NCBI GenBank assembly: GCA_001799195.1
Contig: MGSU01000036.1
Location: 1 to 17,988, forward strand
DNA: 17,988 nt
Source: Deltaproteobacteria bacterium RIFOXYA12_FULL_61_11
Lineage (GTDB): Bacteria; Bdellovibrionota_F; JAHFAK01; YA12-FULL-61-11
Direction: 5' to 3'
A program made the translations under genes and the position numbers. Every line of letters starts with the position of its first letter. Within the stretch, counting starts at the first letter, position 1. Positions 1-17,853 of the stretch are shown piece after piece. The notes beneath the pieces are model-generated. The model saw only the letters and a program-made list of their open reading frames with translations. It was not told the origin of the DNA and searched no databases.

Positions 1-351
1 AATTCCCTAGGAACGCTCCCTCTTAGCACACCTGGGCAAAAAAAGCACGCCATTTTCGAGGATTATTGTAACCAACCAGTCTTGGGTGAATTGCAGATTG
101 TTCTAATCACCATCCATATTGGGGTGGCGCCGACGGGGGACCCCCGCCACGCGCAAGCATGAGCATGGTGGGGGTGAGAGGCGACAGGACCCCTTACCCC
201 ACCCAAGACTGAATGCTTACGGAGTATTTACCCCATCTGGCGCGGTGTGTCGTTTCGGGTTCTCGTCGAGGCGGGGACCGTCATGCTCCACTGCTCGGTC
301 TTGAACCGGCGGCTGGTCGTTTTTCAGCTCTGTGTTGACGAGGGGGCCTGG
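1..351. other. Gene-free leading region with repeat copy A
   Basis: No convincing coding region is seen. Bases 1-76 show nothing recognisable. Bases 77-211 are copy A of the dispersed inverted-repeat element. Bases 212-351 are the 3' flank of the minus-strand gene that stops at 352. I see no strong hairpin with a T-tract that would end that gene. An open frame starting at 119 exists only because it lies in the repeat; the same frame is interrupted in copy B, so it is not treated as a gene. Confidence 0.6.
77..211 (+). repeat. Dispersed structured repeat element, copy A
   Basis: A 135-base element bounded by a perfect 12-bp inverted repeat, CAGTCTTGGGTG at 77-88 and CACCCAAGACTG at 200-211. 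The core 121-199 matches copy C (16160-16238, opposite strand) at 77 of 79 bases and copy B (from 6094) at roughly 90%. Inside the core, CCCCCGCCA (141-149) can pair with TGGTGGGGG (166-174) around a 16-base loop. After the 5' end block, GATT (96-99) can pair with AATC (105-108). No open reading frame is conserved across the three copies. The size and terminal inverted repeats fit a MITE-like or REP/BIME-like element, or a structured RNA. No enzyme that would move it is in the window. Confidence 0.85.
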
Positions 352-2321: not shown

Positions 2322-4178
2322 ATGGGTGGGGCTATGAAGAAGCCAGGAAAGACCCAGATCACGGTTACGTCAACCCCCTTGCGCGTCCGCGAACGGCCTG
2401 AGCTCGAGAGCACTCCGTATCTCATCGCCACCGCCGGCGTGCTCCAGAACCGTATCTTCTACCTGCCGCCGGAGCGGGTACTCACCCTCGGGCGGTCCGA
2501 GGATTCGTTCCTCCAACTCGAGGATGAGCAGGTCTCGAGACGGCATTGTCTGCTCGAACGCAAGGGGGATACGGTCTTCTTGCGCGATCTGAACAGCACC
2601 AATGGTACTCAGGTCAATGGAGAGCGCATCGTCGAAGTGGCTCTGCGCGATGGGGACCGCCTCACGGTGGGCGGCTCGCAGTTCACCTTCCAGGTGCCGA
2701 CCACGGTCGGAGGCGCCGCGCCCGGCCTCAGCCTCAAATCCCACGCCTATTTCGAACAACGGCTCGAGGAAGAGATCGATCGGGCTGGACGCTTCCAACG
2801 CTCCTGCGCTCTCCTTATGGTCTTCGAGGACCAGAGCGGCAGAGAAGGGGAGCAACGCGAGGATCTCTTGGCCATAGTAGCCAAGGTGCTTCGCCCCATG
2901 GACATCGTCGGACTCTACGGCAAGGGGCAGCTCGAGGTGCTGCTCCCGGAGTCGGGACCGGAAGAGGCGCGACGGGTCGCCGAGAACCTGGCCACAGGGG
3001 CTCCGGTGACGCTCAGGGAACGACTCAGTATTGGTTTCGCTGCCTTCCCCAGCGATGCCCAACGCAAAGAAGTGCTCATCGAACGGGCTCGCCGAGCAAT
3101 GATCCGAGCTCGCTCGCGAGAGGGGATGGGAATCGAGCAAGGGGGAGAGGGAAAGGTACGGCGCCTGACTCTTCCCGCGACGCGCATCATCTTCAAGAAC
3201 GAGAAAATGCTCCAGATCGCCGAACTGGTCCAACGGATCGCTCCGACCGGTATTTCGGTGCTGATCCAAGGCGAGACCGGAGTCGGCAAGGAAATCATAG
3301 CGCAAGCCATCCACCACAACAGTCCTCGGAACAAAGAACCCTTGATCTCGTTGAATTGCGCCGCGTTGCCCGAGGGTTTGCTCGAGAGTGAGCTCTTCGG
3401 GCACGAGCGGGGAGCCTTCACCGGTGCCGAGTCGGCCAAGCCGGGTATGTTCGAAGCGGCTCATCGCGGCACTATTTTCCTCGATGAGGTCGGGGAGATG
3501 AGCGGCAGGACCCAGGTCAAACTGCTCCGCGTCCTCCAGACCCACAAGGTCATGCGGGTCGGCAGCACCCAGGAACGCACGGCCGATGTGCGGGTCATCG
3601 CGGCCACCAACCGGAATCTCGAACGCGCGATCGAATCCGGCGATTTTCGCGAGGACCTCTTCTACAGGCTCAATGCCATCACGTTGAACATCCCGCCCCT
3701 GCGCGACCGGCGCGAGGAGATCCCCCACCTGGTCGGGGTGTTCCTCGAGGAGTTCGCGGCTGTGTACGGGAAACGCATGCTCGAACTCTCCGGGGACGTC
3801 CTCGAGCTCATGCTCCAATACGATTGGCCTGGTAATATCAGAGAATTGCGGAATTGCATCGAACGGGCCGTGGTCCTCACCGAAGGTTCGACCATCCTGC
3901 GTGAACACCTGCCGACCAAGATTTTCCAATACCATCAGGAGCAGCGGACCAAGGTGCGACGCAAGGAGGGGGGGGAGGCCCTGACCTATTTCTCCAATGA
4001 TGCGGCCGCAGAGGGGGGACTAGCCGGCAACCTCAAACAGGCCATGGACGACTACGAACGCGACCTGATCGTCCAAGCGCTCGAGCGTTGTTCCGACAAT
4101 CAGACGAAAGCTGCCGAGTTGCTGAAAATTCCGCGACGGACCCTGGTGAGCAAGATTCGCAAGTACGGTTTGAGCTGA
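2322..4178 (+). CDS. FHA-domain sigma54-dependent transcriptional activator with degenerate GGDEF-like module
   Basis: A 618-residue enhancer-binding protein that would remodel sigma54-RNA polymerase by ATP hydrolysis. The FHA domain (about 33-125) carries GRSEDS, SRRHC (72-76) and NSTNGT (91-96), the phosphothreonine-binding signature. Residues 138-270 resemble a GGDEF fold, but the active motif is replaced by YGKGQLEVLLP, so diguanylate cyclase activity is unlikely. The AAA+ domain (about 288-530) has Walker A GETGVGKE (317-324), GAFTGA (364-369), which contacts sigma54, and Walker B GTIFLDEVGE (383-392). A Fis-type helix-turn-helix ends the protein (578-618). There is no receiver domain, so control is probably by Ser/Thr phosphorylation read by FHA, as in myxobacteria. 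The start at 2322 has GGTGGG upstream; the ATG at 2334 is an alternative. Its targets are unknown. It converges on the next gene with 12 bases between stops. Confidence 0.93.
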   Translation: MGGAMKKPGKTQITVTSTPLRVRERPELESTPYLIATAGVLQNRIFYLPPERVLTLGRSEDSFLQLEDEQVSRRHCLLERKGDTVFLRDLNSTNGTQVNGERIVEVALRDGDRLTVGGSQFTFQVPTTVGGAAPGLSLKSHAYFEQRLEEEIDRAGRFQRSCALLMVFEDQSGREGEQREDLLAIVAKVLRPMDIVGLYGKGQLEVLLPESGPEEARRVAENLATGAPVTLRERLSIGFAAFPSDAQRKEVLIERARRAMIRARSREGMGIEQGGEGKVRRLTLPATRIIFKNEKMLQIAELVQRIAPTGISVLIQGETGVGKEIIAQAIHHNSPRNKEPLISLNCAALPEGLLESELFGHERGAFTGAESAKPGMFEAAHRGTIFLDEVGEMSGRTQVKLLRVLQTHKVMRVGSTQERTADVRVIAATNRNLERAIESGDFREDLFYRLNAITLNIPPLRDRREEIPHLVGVFLEEFAAVYGKRMLELSGDVLELMLQYDWPGNIRELRNCIERAVVLTEGSTILREHLPTKIFQYHQEQRTKVRRKEGGEALTYFSNDAAAEGGLAGNLKQAMDDYERDLIVQALERCSDNQTKAAELLKIPRRTLVSKIRKYGLS

Positions 4179-5972: not shown

Positions 5973-6010
5973 GGAAAGACTCCTGCGAGAGACCCTGGAG
6001 AGGTTCCTTC

Positions 6011-6040
6011 TATGTAATGTTTCAGTGAAGAGCCAGTAAA
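6011..6040 (-). promoter_or_regulatory. Weak promoter candidate for the solute-binding protein gene
   Basis: On the minus strand TTTACT (6035-6040), 18-base spacer, TACATA (6011-6016). The match is modest. The spacer contains exactly one arm (6021-6034) of the 14-bp inverted repeat that encloses repeat copy B, so any protein bound there would contact this promoter. Confidence 0.3.
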
Positions 6041-6207
6041 AGAAAAACAGTACAGTTTTGGGTGGATTGCACATGAGTGACCTTTACCTCGCCGGGGTGG
6101 CACCGATGGGGGGCCCCCGCCACGCGCAAGGATGAGCATGGTGGGGGTGGGAGGTGACAGGACCCCTCGACCCACCCAAGACCGAACTCCTATGGCTCTT
6201 CACTGAA
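6021..6207. repeat. Perfect 14-bp inverted repeat flanking repeat copy B
   Basis: TTCAGTGAAGAGCC (6021-6034) and its exact reverse complement GGCTCTTCACTGAA (6194-6207) are 159 bases apart and enclose copy B. Copies A and C lack this outer pair. One arm is inside the leftward promoter candidate and the other ends 26 bases before the rightward TTGACA. Possible readings are a longer version of the element, a DNA-looping operator pair, or a cruciform. Confidence 0.75.
6053..6184 (+). repeat. Dispersed structured repeat element, copy B
   Basis: A 132-base copy in the same orientation as copy A. Its ends, CAGTTTTGGGTG (6053-6064) and CACCCAAGACCG (6173-6184), are an imperfect inverted repeat. The core (6094-6173) differs from copy A at about six positions plus one indel, but keeps CCCCCGCCA and TGGTGGGGG with a 16-base loop. 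The segment between the 5' block (ending GGATTGCA) and the core is unrelated to those of A and C. The open frame of copy A is interrupted here by a stop. This is the most diverged of the three copies. Confidence 0.8.
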
Positions 6208-6233
6208 GCCTTACCCCTCTATGGTGAAAAGGG

Positions 6234-6263
6234 TTGACAAAAAAATCAAGAAGTGTTTAGCAT
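6234..6263 (+). promoter_or_regulatory. Sigma70-type promoter for the dnaG-rpoD cluster
   Basis: A perfect TTGACA (6234-6239) is followed after an 18-base A-rich spacer by TAGCAT (6258-6263). It lies about 150 bases upstream of dnaG and downstream of repeat copy B, so the repeat would not be in this transcript. It is the best-matching promoter in the window. Confidence 0.55.
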
Positions 6264-6410
6264 CCGTCCTTCGATTCTGCCGGCGACCCGGATGAATTAC
6301 AGCGTTTTGAAATTGCTGGGTTGTGGGCGACGACAACGCCGCGCCCCTGAAGTACCCGACGAGCTCCTGGCCGAGCGACCAGGGATGAGGTGGTTTTGAG
6401 GTATGACGCG

Positions 6411-8264
6411 GTGTCCACCGGAAGGTACATCGAACGCGAATCCCTCCTCCGTCTCCGCAGCATCATCGATCTCGCCGATCTGGTCGGTGATTACGCTAAG
6501 CTTAAGCGAGTGGGCTCCAATTTCCAAGCTACTTGCCCCTTCCCCGATCATGCAGAGAGCAAGCCGTCCTTCTACGTCAACTCGGAGAAGGGGGTCTATA
6601 CCTGCTTCGGATGTAATCGGCACGGCGATGCGATCTCGTTCCTGATGGAAATGGAGGGCCTCACCTTCAACGAAGCGGTCGTGAATCTCGCCCAACGGTA
6701 CCAGGTCGAGTTGGTCTATCGAGGGAACCCCGAGCAGGATACCCGGCCGCGTCAAGCCCTGCGTATCCTCGAAGAAGCCAAGACTGCCTATCATTCCGCT
6801 CTCCTGGAGTTGCCCAGGGACCACGAGGTGTGGGCCTATACCCGGCGACGTGGGTTGAGCGAAGAGGTGATTCGCGAACTGCAGCTCGGGTATGCCCCCG
6901 AGGGTTGGCAGTACCTGGTCGAGCGGTTGCGCGCTCTTCGACTCGACCTCGATCTGGCCGTCGAGATCGGGTTGCTCGGGCAGGGACAGCAGGGGCGGGT
7001 CTACGATTTCCTTCGCCATCGCCTGGTTTTCCCCCTGGTCCGGTTGAGCGGGAGTTTGCTCGGTTTTGGTGGGCGGGCGCTCTCCGCAGAGGTCGATCAG
7101 AAGTACGTCAATCCGAGGGAATCGTTCGTGTACCAAAAACGCGAACACCTCTATGGTCTGCATCTGACGAGGCACCACGTCAAGGCCGCGAACTGTTGCG
7201 TGGTCGTCGAGGGCTACATGGACTTCGTGAGCCTGTACGCCCGGGGGGTCAAGAATGTCGTGGCCGCGTTGGGCACGGCCTTGACTGCCCAGCAACTGGA
7301 ACTCATCCGCCGTTTCACCGACAAGGTCGTGCTCTGCTTCGATGGGGATCGAGCAGGTGTGCGGAGTATGGAACGCAACCTACCCCCGATCTTGCAGAAA
7401 GGCTTGCAAGGGTTCGCGGTGGATCTGCCCGATGGTGAAGACCCCGATAGTGTGATCCTCAAGCACGGGCAAGGGGAAATGGTGCGTTTGATCGAAAGGG
7501 CCCGGCCGCTCCTGGCCTTCTACATCGACCATCGCCTGAACGAGGAAGGCGGCGCTTATGGGCGCAACACCGTCGCACGTGAAGTGCTCAAGATCCTACG
7601 CGAGGTCCCGAGCCGCATCGATCGCAAACTGGCGGTGGAACAGGCCGGGCGCATGCTCGACATCCCGGAGAGCTTTTTCTCCGCGGAACTGGGGCTCGTG
7701 CCGGAGGTTGCTCGCCGGCGCAAGGAGCGCACGACCGACGTTGTTCCGGGGAACGCTGAACCCGAGATCGGGTTGCTCCAAGCGCTGCTCCAGGACGAAG
7801 AGCTCGTGTTCGAGGCCGGAGATCTGGAGCTCGTGGAACTCGTCGAGGCCGGTCCGGTCCACGGAGCGCTCGAGAGACTCGTTCGACATGCCGCCGAGCA
7901 CGAGGCGGTTGATGCCAAGGTTCTGCTCGACGAGGCCGAAGGTACTCCCGAACAGGCTGTCCTCCGCGCGGCTCTGTTCCCGGACCAGCGCCTGGGGAGT
8001 TCCGACCCGCGCCAACTCTACAGAGCCTGTTTGGATCTCCTCGTGCGCAGAGCAGTGGAACGGCACTTTGCCGAACTGAACCGCGAGGTCGCCCGTTCGC
8101 TCTCGGCGCGAGAGCAGGAGGACGGAACGACGAGTGAGTTGAAGAATTTGTTAGAGCGCCAGGGCGAACTGCGCCGCTGCATGGCCCGATTGAAGGAAAG
8201 ACCCCCGGGAGAACTCGAGGTCCGAGAACTCGTCGGTCTGGTGCGCGGTGTGGTCGGGGCTTGA
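6411..8264 (+). CDS. dnaG: DNA primase
   Basis: Makes RNA primers for the replication fork. Counting from GTG 6411 (617 residues), the zinc-binding domain has C42, H47, C65 and C68 (CPFPDH ... CFGC); the histidine sits two residues further on than in the common CPFH form. The TOPRIM catalytic core shows EGYMD (267-271), GTALT (288-292), DGDRAG (311-316) and DPD (344-346). The C-terminal third, where the DnaB-interacting domain should lie, resembles nothing I can align by eye. The start at 6411 ([16 protein letters not shown]) puts 16 residues before the conserved block, as in E. coli DnaG, and has GAGG upstream; GTG 6390 would add seven residues. It is first in a cluster with rpoD, 31 bases downstream, as in the macromolecular synthesis operon. 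Confidence 0.96.
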
Positions 8265-10067: not shown

Positions 10068-10068
<1 letters not shown>

Positions 10069-10141
10069 GGCCCATAGCTCAGTTGGTCAGAGCAGCCGGC
10101 TCATAACCGGTCGGTCCAAGGTTCAAGTCCTTGTGGGCCCA
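10068..10141 (+). tRNA. tRNA with CAT anticodon, probably tRNA-Ile2 (lysidine type) rather than tRNA-Met
   Basis: A complete cloverleaf of 74 bases: acceptor GGGCCCA/TGGGCCC (7 bp), D stem GCTC/GAGC, anticodon stem GCCGG/CCGGT with loop CTCATAA (anticodon CAT, 10102-10104), T stem CAAGG/CCTTG with loop TTCAAGT, discriminator A. CCA is not encoded. A CAT anticodon serves initiator Met, elongator Met or Ile2. The first pair is a normal G-C, which argues against initiator. C4-G69 and C5-G68, reported TilS identity pairs, and the GGTTCAAGTCC T-arm resemble E. coli ileX, which also lies near rpoD. Automatic annotation may read tRNA-Met. Its first base is the last base of the rpoD stop codon, so it must be processed from, or overlap, the rpoD transcript. 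Confidence 0.93.
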
Positions 10142-10192: not shown

Positions 10193-11053
10193 GTGCTTGA
10201 ACAACTCAGGTTGCTGTGCGAGTTCCAGAAGATCGATTTAGCCCTAGAGGAGATCGAGAGCGTCCGCAAGGTGGTGGCTGATGAGTACTCCGCCCTGCAG
10301 GTGAAATTGCGAGAGCTCGAGGAGCGATTCGCCCTCCTCGAAGAGCAGGGCAGCGACCTGGTGAGCGAGAGCAACGAACTCGAGTCGAAGCTGGCACTCG
10401 ACAATGAGAAGATCCAGCGCAGCGAGGCCAAACTCCTCGAGATCAAGACGACCGAAGAGTACGAGGCGGGTTTGCGGGAGATCGAGAACAAGCGCATCGA
10501 GATCGAGGAGACCGAGACCGCGATCCTCGAGAAGAGCGAACTGGTCGACCGCTCCAAACTCGCGATCAAGGAGATGTCGACCCAGATCGAGACCTTGCGC
10601 AGTCAGGGGGAGACGATCCGCCAACGGTACGAACAAGTCTCCATCGAGACCGATGCCCGCAAGTCGGAGACCGCTAAGAGCAAGGAAGGTCTGATCAGCA
10701 AGATCGACAAGCGGTACTTGGCCAGATACGAGTTCTTGAAGAAGCATCGCCAAGGTGCGGTCGTGGTCGGTTGCAAGGACTACGTTTGCACCGGCTGTCA
10801 CATGGGGGTTCCGCCCCAGCTCTATTACCAGTTGCAACGCACCAACGATGAGTACCTGTCGTGCCCCTCGTGCCAGCGCATCATCTTCTTCTTCAAGCAC
10901 AACCTCGATGGGCAGTTCCCTCCCCAGGAGGAGCCGCCTCCGGTCGAAGAGAAGCCCAAACGGGCTAAGAAGCCGGCCAAGAAGAAGGAAGGGAAGAAAG
11001 TAGAAAAAGAAGAACAAGAAGAGAAAGAAGACGTAAGAGAAGAGCAGGAGTAG
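10193..11053 (+). CDS. C4-type zinc-ribbon coiled-coil protein (zf-RING_7 / DUF164-like)
   Basis: A 286-residue cytoplasmic protein. Residues about 1-170 are a long Glu/Lys/Leu-rich coiled coil. A zinc ribbon follows, with four cysteines in two CxxC knuckles: CTGC (199-202) and CPSC (224-227). The last 45 residues are a low-complexity Pro/Lys/Glu tail. Members of this family are widespread, poorly characterised, and to my knowledge often lie beside rnpB; a nucleic-acid-binding or scaffold role is suspected but not established. GTG 10193 was chosen because GGGAGGTGA lies at good spacing; GTG 10184 would have its site too close. The tRNA is 51 bases upstream. The 3' end overlaps the P1 helix of RNase P RNA. 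Confidence 0.85.
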   Translation: MLEQLRLLCEFQKIDLALEEIESVRKVVADEYSALQVKLRELEERFALLEEQGSDLVSESNELESKLALDNEKIQRSEAKLLEIKTTEEYEAGLREIENKRIEIEETETAILEKSELVDRSKLAIKEMSTQIETLRSQGETIRQRYEQVSIETDARKSETAKSKEGLISKIDKRYLARYEFLKKHRQGAVVVGCKDYVCTGCHMGVPPQLYYQLQRTNDEYLSCPSCQRIIFFFKHNLDGQFPPQEEPPPVEEKPKRAKKPAKKKEGKKVEKEEQEEKEDVREEQE

Positions 11054-11406
11054 ATCGGGCGGTCGCCGGGGTTCGTCCTCGGAGGAAAGTCCGGGCTTCG
11101 CAGAGCGGGATGCTGGGTAACTCCCAGGGGAGGCAACTTCCGGAAAGTGCCACAGAAAAGATACCGCCGCTCGATGGGAGCCCCCGAGCGGTAAGGGTGA
11201 AAAGGTGAGGTAAGAGCTCACCCGGGCAGCGGGTGACCGCGGCCCGAGGTAAACCCCATCCGAAGCAAGGCCAAATAAGGGGTCGCCAAGGGTTGCTCGC
11301 CCGAGATCCCGGGTAGGCCGCTCGAGCCCGTCGGTAACGCCGGGCCTAGAGTAATGACCGCCGCCATGGGCACCCATGGCACAGGACCCGGCTTACAGAT
11401 CTGCTT
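11048..11406 (+). ncRNA. rnpB: RNase P RNA, bacterial class A
   Basis: The catalytic RNA that cuts 5' leaders from pre-tRNAs. Conserved blocks appear in canonical order: GAGGAAAGTCCGGGCTTC (from about 11081), ACAGAAAAGATACCGCC (11152-11168), GGTAAGGGTGAAAAGGTG, GAAGCAAGGCCAAATAAGG, GGGTAGGCCGCTCGAGCC, AGAGTAATGACCGCC and ACAGGACCCGGCTTA. The ends were set by P1: GAGTAGATC (11048-11056) pairs with GATCTGCTT (11398-11406) over 9 bp including two G-U pairs. This makes the RNA about 359 nt and puts its 5' end across the stop codon (11051-11053) of the zinc-ribbon gene. The exact ends are uncertain by a few bases. An L15-like AAGGGTT could provide the GGU that contacts tRNA CCA. Confidence 0.95.
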
Positions 11407-11409
11407 CTC

Positions 11410-11444
11410 GGTCGGGGAGAGCCAAGGATGGCTCTACCCCGGCC
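11410..11444 (+). terminator. Strong hairpin directly after RNase P RNA
   Basis: GGTCGGGG plus AGAGCC pairs with GGCTCT plus CCCCGGCC: 14 bp with one bulged A and an AAGGAT loop, starting four bases after P1. There is no T-tract (AATTCT follows), so it may be a weak or factor-aided terminator, or a 3' processing and stability stem. Confidence 0.5.
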
Positions 11445-14881: not shown

Positions 14882-16039
14882 TTAAAAAGCGGCCCGGAGG
14901 TCCGAGGCTTTGTCGGTGCGTTCCCAGGTAAAATCGCTGTCCTTTCGTCCGAAATGTCCATAGGCCGCGGTCTTGCGGTAGATCGGGCGCAGGAGATCGA
15001 GGTGGGTGATGATCTCGGCTGGTCTCAAGGGGAAGAGCTCACGGACCACGACGCTCAGACGCCGTTCGTCGACCTTCCCCGTGCCGTAGGTCTCGATCAT
15101 GACCGAAACCGGGTCGGCCACGCCGATCGCATAGGCGAGTTGGACCTCACAGCGGTCCGCGACCCCCGAGGCAACGATGTTCTTCGCGATGTACCGAGCC
15201 ATGTAAGCCGCACTGCGGTCGACCTTGCTCGGATCTTTGCCGGAAAAACATCCGCCGCCGTGGTGACCGGCCCCGCCATAGGTGTCGACGATGATCTTGC
15301 GTCCGGTCAAGCCGCAGTCGCCCATAGGACCGCCCACGACGAAACGGCCGGTCGGGTTGATGTGGAACACGGTCCGTTTGGTGAGCAAGTTGGTGGGAAG
15401 GGTCTTCTCGATGATCTCGGAGATAATGCCTTCGCGCAGCTCGGCCTGACTCACGTCTGGGGTATGCTGCGTGGAAATGACCACATTGTTGATCTCGACC
15501 GGTTGATGGTTGCTGTAGAGCACGCTGACCTGGCTCTTTCCGTCTGGGCGCAGGAAAGGGAGGCCCTTGGCACGCCGCGTACGGGCGAGGGCCTTGGTCA
15601 GGTCATGGGCGCATTGGATGGGAAGGGGCATGAGCTCGGGGGTTTCGCGGCAGGCGTAGCCGAACATGATGCCCTGGTCTCCGGCGCCTTGTAAGCCCGT
15701 GGCCACGCCATCGACCCCTAGGGCGATGTCTGGGCTTTGGCGGCCTATCGAAGTGATCACGGCGCAGGTTTCCCAGTGGAAACCCATGTCGGCGTTCACG
15801 TAGCCGATGTCCCGGATGGTGTTGCGTACGATGGTGGGGATGTCGGTATAGCACTTTGTGGTGATTTCTCCGGAGACGAAGGCGAAGCCGGTGCTGACCA
15901 TGCATTCGCAGGCCACGCGGCCTTGGGGGTCCTGGGCGAGGATATCATCGAGAACGGCATCACTGATCTGGTCGGCGACCTTGTCCGGATGTCCCTCGGT
16001 CACGGATTCCGAGGAGAAGATATAATCCTGGTTCGACAT
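14882..16039 (-). CDS. metK: S-adenosylmethionine synthetase (methionine adenosyltransferase)
   Basis: Makes S-adenosylmethionine from ATP and methionine in the cytoplasm. The 385-residue protein from ATG 16039 starts with the usual block, [20 protein letters not shown] (8-27). [12 protein letters not shown] (118-129) and [14 protein letters not shown] (261-274) match the two family signatures. In the second, cysteine replaces the usual alanine before FSGKD. AGGAGG lies 11 bases before the ATG; a second in-frame ATG at 16078 would add 13 residues unlike the family. metK is first in the operon with ahcY. Its upstream region contains repeat copy C. I looked for a SAM or SAH riboswitch there and found no match to the motifs I know. 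Confidence 0.97.
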
Positions 16040-16144
16040 AACAGCAAAATCCTCCTGTTCGTGCCGGCCTCGGTGCATGAGCCGACCTCAAGGATCCTCC
16101 ATAACCCGAAATCGAACGCGAAGACAAGCTCCGATTCTGCAACC

Positions 16145-16280
16145 CTTCAGTCTTGGTTTGGGTAAGGGGTCCTGTCGCCTCACACCCCCACCATGCTCAT
16201 GCTTGCGCGTGGTGGGGGTCCCCCGTCGGCGCCACCCCAACGTGGTGACAAACCACCTGCAATCCACCCCAAGACTGAAG
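16145..16280 (-). repeat. Dispersed structured repeat element, copy C
   Basis: A 136-base copy reading on the minus strand, toward metK, whose start is 106 bases away. Its ends are the perfect 12-bp inverted repeat CTTCAGTCTTGG (16145-16156) and CCAAGACTGAAG (16269-16280). Its core matches copy A at 77 of 79 bases. One of the two differences turns a G-T pair in the internal 9-bp stem into A-T, making CCCCCACCA/TGGTGGGGG fully Watson-Crick. After the 5' block, GGTG can pair with CACC where copy A has GATT/AATC, so two pairs change in a compensatory way. Confidence 0.85.
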
Positions 16281-16437
16281 ACATACCTGATTCTCATGAG
16301 GTGCTCGAGCCTTCCGGAGGAAGGCAGAAATGGATGCGTTGCGTCGATCCCGAGGCCGGTGAGGTGGGGACGAGATGTCTCCGTACCTGAGAAGCGGCGG
16401 CCCCAGGGCTTGGGAGGAGAACATTTAACTTAATGAC

Positions 16438-16506: not shown

Positions 16507-17853
16507 ATGTACTCGACCTTGTTCGTCCTCATCTCCTTGTTGGTGGTGGTCGGTTGTGGTGACGATCGAGTGCCGAACGATTATTTCGATCGCAATGGTT
16601 ACGCCTCGACCGTGGACACCACTCCCCAAGGGAGCACCATCGCCGATGCCAACGGCAATGGACAGGGGACTACGGACAATGGGGCTGGGTCTGATCGGGA
16701 TGGCGACGGTATTGTCGACAGCTTGGACAATTGCCCCGCGACCGCCAATCCGGGTCAAGAAGATGAGGATGAAGACGGAGTAGGCGATGTCTGCGACAGC
16801 GAGGGCGACGATACCGACAAGACCGATCGCGACGGAGACGGCGTGTTCGATGACCGCGATAATTGCCCCGGGATCATGAATCCGACCCAGGCCGATAACG
16901 ATCACGATGGTTTGGGCGATGTCTGTGACGATGACGATGACCAAGACGGTATCAAGGACGAGGATGACAACTGCCCCTTCGTCGCGAACCCCGAGCAGGC
17001 CGACCGCGATGGGAACGGCGTGGGCGATGCGTGCGAAGAGAACGGCAATGGGAACGGCAATGGGAACGGCAATGGGAACGGGAACGGCTGTGAACCCGGT
17101 GATCCGAACGATGAGTGCAACGATTACAACGGCTACCCGGACAATGGTTGCGACTGGGGTACCCCCTGCGTGATCGATCCCTGCACCGCCACCGATCCCT
17201 GCGACGTGGTCGATCCCTGCGATGCCGATGATCCCTGTGCCGGCGAGACCCCTTTCGACGCCGAAGCCCACTTGAAACTCTACTACCGCTTCAATGAAGG
17301 TAGTGGCACCGTAGCCAGGGACAGCTCCGCTGCTGGTAATAACGGCACAATCGTCAACGGTCAGTGGTGGGATTGCCCCGAGTTCGGCGATCGCACCATC
17401 CTCAACTTCGACGGCGACACCAGTTTCGTCAAGGTCGAGAACAGCGAGAGCCTCCGTATCCGCAGCGAAATGACCCTCGAGTTCAATCTGCGTATGAAGG
17501 GGTTCGGCGACAGTAACTATCCCAAGATCCTGAGCAAGAACGATGCGTACGGCTACGTGGTGTACTACAATGTCGCCCAACGGATGCTCTACTTCAAGAT
17601 GGTGATCGGCGAGCGTATCGTCGAAGCGCCCATCGGCGATATCGCCATGGACCGCTGGGCCTCGATCGCGATCACGTATGACGGCGAGTACGTGCGGTCG
17701 TACCTCAACGGCATGCGGACCGCCCAGGTCGCGGCCACGGGTTCCATCGCGATCAACGACGAGCCCCTGTACATCGGCGGGCAAGAAGGCGAGACCGCGT
17801 TCCAGGGCCACATTGACGAAGTCAGGATCTACGACGCCGCCCTGGTGTACTGA
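16507..17853 (+). CDS. Lipoprotein with thrombospondin type 3 repeats and a LamG-like domain
   Basis: A 448-residue surface or outer-membrane lipoprotein. The signal peptide ends in a lipobox, VVGC, with lipidated C17. Residues 62-178 hold thrombospondin type 3 repeats, seen as [30 protein letters not shown] and [13 protein letters not shown], each closing with GDVC or GDAC; these bind calcium through DxDxDG loops and are disulfide-linked. Then come an Asn-Gly repeat (179-194) and four DPC units at six-residue spacing (225-244). The C-terminal domain (about 250-448) has the concanavalin/LamG-like jellyroll pattern: [27 protein letters not shown] and [12 protein letters not shown]. Such proteins usually bind sugars or serve adhesion; the ligand is unknown. 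GGAG lies seven bases before the ATG. No neighbour forms an operon with it. Confidence 0.88.
17041..17088 (+). repeat. 12-base tandem repeat encoding Asn-Gly linker
   Basis: Three exact copies of AACGGCAATGGG (17041-17076) plus a degenerate 12 bases, giving 16 residues of alternating Asn and Gly. Unit length is a multiple of three, so copy-number change would lengthen or shorten the linker without breaking the frame. Confidence 0.85.
17176..17238 (+). repeat. 18-base periodic repeat encoding DPC units
   Basis: GATCCCTG recurs at 17176, 17194, 17212 and 17230, exactly 18 bases apart, encoding Asp-Pro-Cys every six residues with variable residues between. It looks like a cysteine-bearing spacer between the calcium repeats and the LamG-like domain. 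Confidence 0.8.

Follow-up and report, generated by a model that had tools for sequence, protein, structure and literature searches.

The window, i.e., the whole analyzed stretch of 17,988 nucleotides, harbors three copies of a short repeat, here termed A, B, and C. Copy A lies between the contig edge and a gene with its 3' end at 352. Copy B is located ahead of dnaG (6390-8264, + strand, assigned by Pfam), which is followed by rpoD and, directly after it, by a tRNA-Met (10068-10141). Copy C is positioned beside metK (S-adenosylmethionine synthetase; 14882-16042, - strand), which starts about 97 nt past the element. In addition, the window contains a bacterial RNase P RNA of class A (11047-11411, 293 bits) and a protein combining an FHA domain, a weak GGDEF match, and sigma-54 activator domains (2322-4178). 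Another protein (16507-17853), read by eye, is composed of Asp-rich thrombospondin-type-3-like repeats, a Gly-Asn-rich stretch, and a probable LamG-like C-terminal part.

Limits and flanks of the three copies

The initial annotation had placed the repeats at 77-211, 6053-6184, and 16145-16280, and copies are indeed present at these places, with A and B in one orientation and C in the other. Copies A and C differ at 2 positions over about 79 core bases, as it had also stated. Its description of the copies as always lying between genes holds for B and C, whereas A is bounded by the contig edge on one side. The limits given for A and C were too short, and those for B were wrong, its true ends being located 30-40 bp farther out.

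The complete copy A spans 68-220 (153 bp, + strand) with the ends GTAACCAACCAGTCTTGGG and CCCAAGACTGAATGCTTAC, and its near-invariant structured core occupies 121-193 (+). Copy B extends over 6014-6214 (201 bp, + strand) with the ends GTAATGTTTCAGTGAAGAGCCA and TGGCTCTTCACTGAAGCCTTAC and has its core at 6094-6166 (+). It belongs to a third subfamily whose ends read GTAATGTTTCAGTGAAG..., and its limits are therefore those given here. Copy C covers 16139-16286 (148 bp, - strand), with the core at 16166-16238 (-). The outer ends of all three copies are GTAWNCCTTCAGTCTTGG-like, and an end profile from the aligned copies yields the consensus GTAtcCCTTCAGTCTTGGG at both ends. Terminal inverted repeats are thus present as had been claimed, but they are not confined to 12 bp: in the alignment of copies the similarity runs outward to GTA...TAC, giving imperfect repeats of about 18-20 bp.

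Each window copy is flanked by an 8-bp target-site duplication, a feature that the initial annotation had proposed to look for and did not describe. Copy A lies between GGATTATT (60-67) and GGAGTATT (221-228), copy B between CCTTCTAT (6006-6013) and CCCTCTAT (6215-6222), and copy C between CCGATTCT (16131-16138) and CTGATTCT (16287-16294). The two members of each pair are identical at 7/8 positions.

A multi-copy family with 8-bp target duplications

The expectation that the genome would hold many more copies is borne out. In the genome of origin (4.64 Mb, 342 contigs, 87% complete), copy A gives 42 BLAST matches, and a covariance model trained on 38 copies gives 93 matches of 90-260 bp with E-values down to 2.5e-41, well beyond what chance would produce. 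The elements are mostly 145-150, 200, or 255 bp long and are without coding capacity. Outside this genome, 58 related or distant genomes contain no real match, the one hit being a 34-base stretch at 2e-4. The element was likewise not found in the one other genome of the same phylum that was searched, nor in plasmids by blastn. Exact core and module patterns, which miss diverged relatives, have no match in genome contigs and viral contigs. Moreover, the core matches no known Rfam family, either at the gathering score or at E<=5, when compared with the Rfam covariance models.

The duplication seen in the window is a property of the family. For the well-delimited copies with both ends (46, then 49), flank identity peaks only at a length of 8, reaching 0.56-0.57 vs 0.26 for shuffled pairs. 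With junction shifts of <=3 nt allowed, flanks match at 7-8 of 8 positions in 29/49 copies, compared with about 1% of mismatched pairs. Such duplications are hallmarks of DDE transposition. The family also has the other attribute of a miniature inverted-repeat transposable element (MITE), namely multiple copies with no transposase gene inside. Of the two classes suggested initially, MITE or REP-like, the first agrees with the inverted repeats, the 8-bp duplications, and the ~90 non-coding copies, whereas the duplications speak against the second.

Like other bacterial MITEs, such as Correia elements and MITEAba12, the elements are short, non-coding, and numerous, and they carry terminal inverted repeats and target duplications. 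They differ in the fixed insertion upstream of promoters described below, in the much stronger conservation of the core relative to the ends, and in optional covarying hairpin modules. A literature search returned no report of a promoter-targeted bacterial MITE.

Spacing between the element and predicted promoters

The distance between the element and the neighboring promoter is sharply defined. On each outward-reading strand (R+ and L-), the score for the -35 box is highest 19 nt from the element end, at 5-6 SD above the mean of other positions. This single sharp peak, at 19 +-1 nt, is absent on the two inward-reading strands. The fixed insertion site relative to promoters is newly described for this family. 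An outward sigma70-like promoter is predicted 15-23 nt from an end in 31/49 copies, a call requiring a score of >=5 within this span on either side; the promoters are sigma70-type consensus predictions, not mapped starts. Of the two controls, the opposite strands give 3/49 and the 45-53 nt span gives 4/49. Predicted promoters are found on the right side only in 18 of the 49 copies, on the left only in 10, and on both sides in 3. The remaining 18 show no score above the threshold in the 15-23 nt span, and the weak cases A and C are among them. Both orientations of the element relative to the promoter occur.

In the window, exactly 19 nt separate the end of copy B from a TTGACA at 6234-6239, located ahead of dnaG and then rpoD. 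Together with a -10 box about 17-18 nt on (TTAGCA/TAGCAT), this hexamer forms a predicted promoter at 6234-6262 (+). For copy A, the sole promoter candidate is a weak one reading leftward, and the promoter between copy C and metK is a weak match to the consensus. The third subfamily repeats the 19-nt spacing, although it was excluded from the end fitting: besides copy B, two of its members, L106 and L115, carry TTGCCA-17-TATGCT and TTCCCC-17-TATGCT, respectively, at 19 nt. In the best-scoring cases, the start of the downstream ORF is usually 54-118 nt from the element end. From their sequences, we take the ORFs behind these promoters to include a DAHP synthase, a band-7 protein, a GGDEF response regulator, and an alanine racemase.

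The family is best read as a non-autonomous DDE-type element, i.e., a MITE, with promoter-upstream targeting. In the mechanism that we propose, a DDE transposase acting in trans would recognize GTAWNCCTTCAGTCTTGG-type ends and insert the element through an 8-bp staggered cut in either orientation. The element would come to lie at a fixed place upstream of a sigma70-type promoter, separated from its -35 box by 11 bp in addition to the 8-bp duplication, and targeting might proceed through promoter-bound RNA polymerase or through the promoter DNA itself. Selection would maintain the core, whether as a cis-acting signal for transposition or as a structured RNA or DNA that the host employs. To this overall explanation, comprising ~90 MITEs, a DDE transposase in trans, an 8-bp cut, and a fixed site upstream of the -35 box, we assign a probability of roughly 0.75. 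If it holds, these gene-less promoter-targeted copies would form a natural data set for studying promoter recognition by a transposase.

The conserved core, the candidate transposase, and alternative readings

The 73-column core has a nucleotide diversity of 0.045, compared with 0.23-0.31 in the arms and end repeats, so that arms and ends are about five-fold more diverged. In the 15 copies with both ends that were also found by an end-only pattern, the values are 0.041 vs 0.21-0.32; the low diversity is therefore not caused by the use of the core in finding copies. Relative to the arms, singletons in the core are depleted about four-fold (Fisher p 5.5e-5), and most copies have zero mismatches over 67 core sites, six subfamily positions being left out. 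Mismatches in the end repeats are significantly commoner in copies with decayed duplications, whereas core mismatches are not. One core pair is changed from G-C to A-U in 11/38 copies and is never broken; the remaining pairs hardly vary and are hence little informative. The core loop reads AAGCATG in 19/33 copies. These patterns fit either constraint after insertion or homogenization among copies.

The ~200- and 255-bp elements contain optional modules of 52 bp, each with two hairpins, at two places in the core. In one element (L114, 1300-1557), a third hairpin module is nested inside a module of the first type. The three module types have the loops AGGA, CCTCCA, and AGGA in common and differ in their stems. 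Among 14 modules, pairing occurs in 96.7% of cells vs 83.5% after shuffling, both-sided changes are found at 6/13 pairs, and the covariation score is 0.407, compared with 0.165 for shuffles and <=0.163 for slid registers. Such covariation supports folding of the modules as a single strand, either RNA or DNA. A CsrB/RsmZ-like GGA-hairpin RNA acting as a CsrA sponge was considered and rejected, the ARGGA motif being conserved only in the optional modules and not in the core loops.

A folded core that stays almost unchanged beside decayed ends may serve the cell or the element's own spread. It is possible, at well under even odds, that the core is a host regulatory element, namely a structured RNA or a protein-binding DNA used by the cell at many promoters, which was first dispersed by transposition and retained afterwards. 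The scarcity of singletons in the core agrees with such a role, as do the absence of core mismatches from most copies even where duplications and end repeats have decayed, the G-C to A-U swap that preserves its pair, and the module hairpins kept paired through both-sided changes. Against this role, the element is oriented either way with respect to the promoter, the downstream genes are functionally unrelated, and the conservation of the core could also stem from concerted evolution by gene conversion between copies or from selection for the ability to transpose. A stronger version appears unlikely: the element would then act as a mobile regulatory cassette, targeted transposition having put its structured, selectively maintained core at a set distance ahead of dozens of promoters and so built a putative shared regulon. 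If it were true, a common element for control (or insulation) would serve all the genes behind the targeted promoters. Whether elements of this kind turn into shared regulatory parts can be tested with the present family, thanks to its near-invariant core next to decayed ends.

For the promoter-targeted MITE that we favor, a transposase would have to act in trans. The initial annotation had proposed looking for a transposase gene flanked by the same ends, and none was found between CCTTCAGTCTTGG ends in the incomplete assembly (87% complete, 342 contigs). Similarly, exact and near end matches across the 342 contigs include no autonomous relative with the same ends; they comprise the ends of the MITEs and a few solo ends adjoining ordinary genes. 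The solo ends on C82, C162, C193, C253, and C18 were rejected as parts of an autonomous element, since by eye their flanking genes are ordinary and include no transposase. The neighbors of solo ends, also read by eye, are radical-SAM-like and nucleotidyltransferase-type proteins and a C-terminal HDOD-like protein. Autonomous copies often drop out of fragmented assemblies, so that their absence here is weak evidence, and the mobilizer is one that we infer.

Targeting upstream of promoters has so far been described in bacteria for a few transposase families; to our knowledge, the p-MULT transposases (TnGBS, ISLre2, ISKra4) are the only bacterial ones with this preference. The p-MULT elements of the Mutator superfamily have inverted repeats of 18-39 bp with a terminal C and direct repeats of 8-9 bp (PMC3942029). 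They insert ahead of sigmaA promoters, 13-17 bp from the -35 box, and do so on both sides if the inverted repeats are alike (PMC3942029). With TnGBS and ISLre2 (p-MULT 3) and ISKra4 (p-MULT 4), the present family shares the imperfect inverted repeats of ~18-20 bp with a terminal C, the 8-bp duplication, the fixed distance upstream of the -35 box, and the use of both orientations, which is reported for elements with symmetric inverted repeats (PMC3942029). In contrast, its 19-nt spacing is outside their 13-17, it is without a transposase gene, and the incomplete assembly gave no p-MULT transposase match. Particularly, neither the ISKra4 model (NF033572) nor Transposase_mut (PF00872) has a match in the genome; the ISLre2 model (NF033529) has none either, and its positive control gave no signal. 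We tentatively favor a transposase of the Mutator superfamily (p-MULT; TnGBS, ISLre2, ISKra4 type), at somewhat less than even odds.

An IS66-family transposase is a less likely mobilizer, and the promoter spacing would then represent a previously unreported preference; an enzyme of some other class, described or not, accounts for the remaining probability. IS66 ends begin with GTAA and IS66 duplications are 8 bp long, features that the MITE family shares, many of its ends reading GTAAGC, and the genome contains one IS66 TnpC gene (PF03050, 316 bits). However, the inferred outer end of this resident IS66, GTAAGCGCGTAATTATCC, has only GTAAGC in common with the MITE, and the resident copy lies inside an IS5-like transposase gene and not upstream of a promoter; moreover, we know of no promoter targeting by IS66. 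The resident IS66 was rejected as the carrier of the MITE because the ends differ after GTAAGC. This element is located within the IS5-like gene on L053 (1720-3136). On its other side it is cut by and joined to another repeat, which is also found at C196 beside an apparent IS3-type transposase, and it may therefore be inactive.

A purely selective origin of the pattern, in which insertion is untargeted and copies outside the upstream regions of genes are lost through their harmful effects, is very improbable. Selection will certainly purge insertions that disrupt genes; in keeping with such a filter, no window copy is inside a gene, and many other copies are close upstream of ORFs. Survival alone would nevertheless spread the distances broadly, so that it is insufficient to produce one sharp peak on the outward strands only.

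A repeat of the REP/BIME or BOX kind, located between genes and not spread by DDE transposition, would match the short, intergenic, structured, and modular character of the family, BOX elements likewise being modular, but it is effectively refuted by the 8-bp duplications and the inverted repeats at fixed ends. REP-type elements have neither end duplications nor long terminal inverted repeats, and a REP element was rejected on account of the duplications. The likeness to pneumococcal BOX lies in a modular intergenic repeat with optional internal units, whereas here the unit count varies by hairpin modules within an element that has terminal inverted repeats and target duplications.

Two further arrangements involve element ends. 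On L024 (C32:16-335), two elements from different subfamilies form a tandem pair 8 bp apart, the first having integrated immediately next to the end of the other. The contigs L132 (1-260) and L037 have ~39 nt in common, including flank and element end (GGATGCCCGGAACTGGGCGCGGTATCTTCAGTCTTGGGTG), and differ in their interiors; on L132, this is followed by genes that, by eye, resemble an AbiE-type toxin-antitoxin pair.
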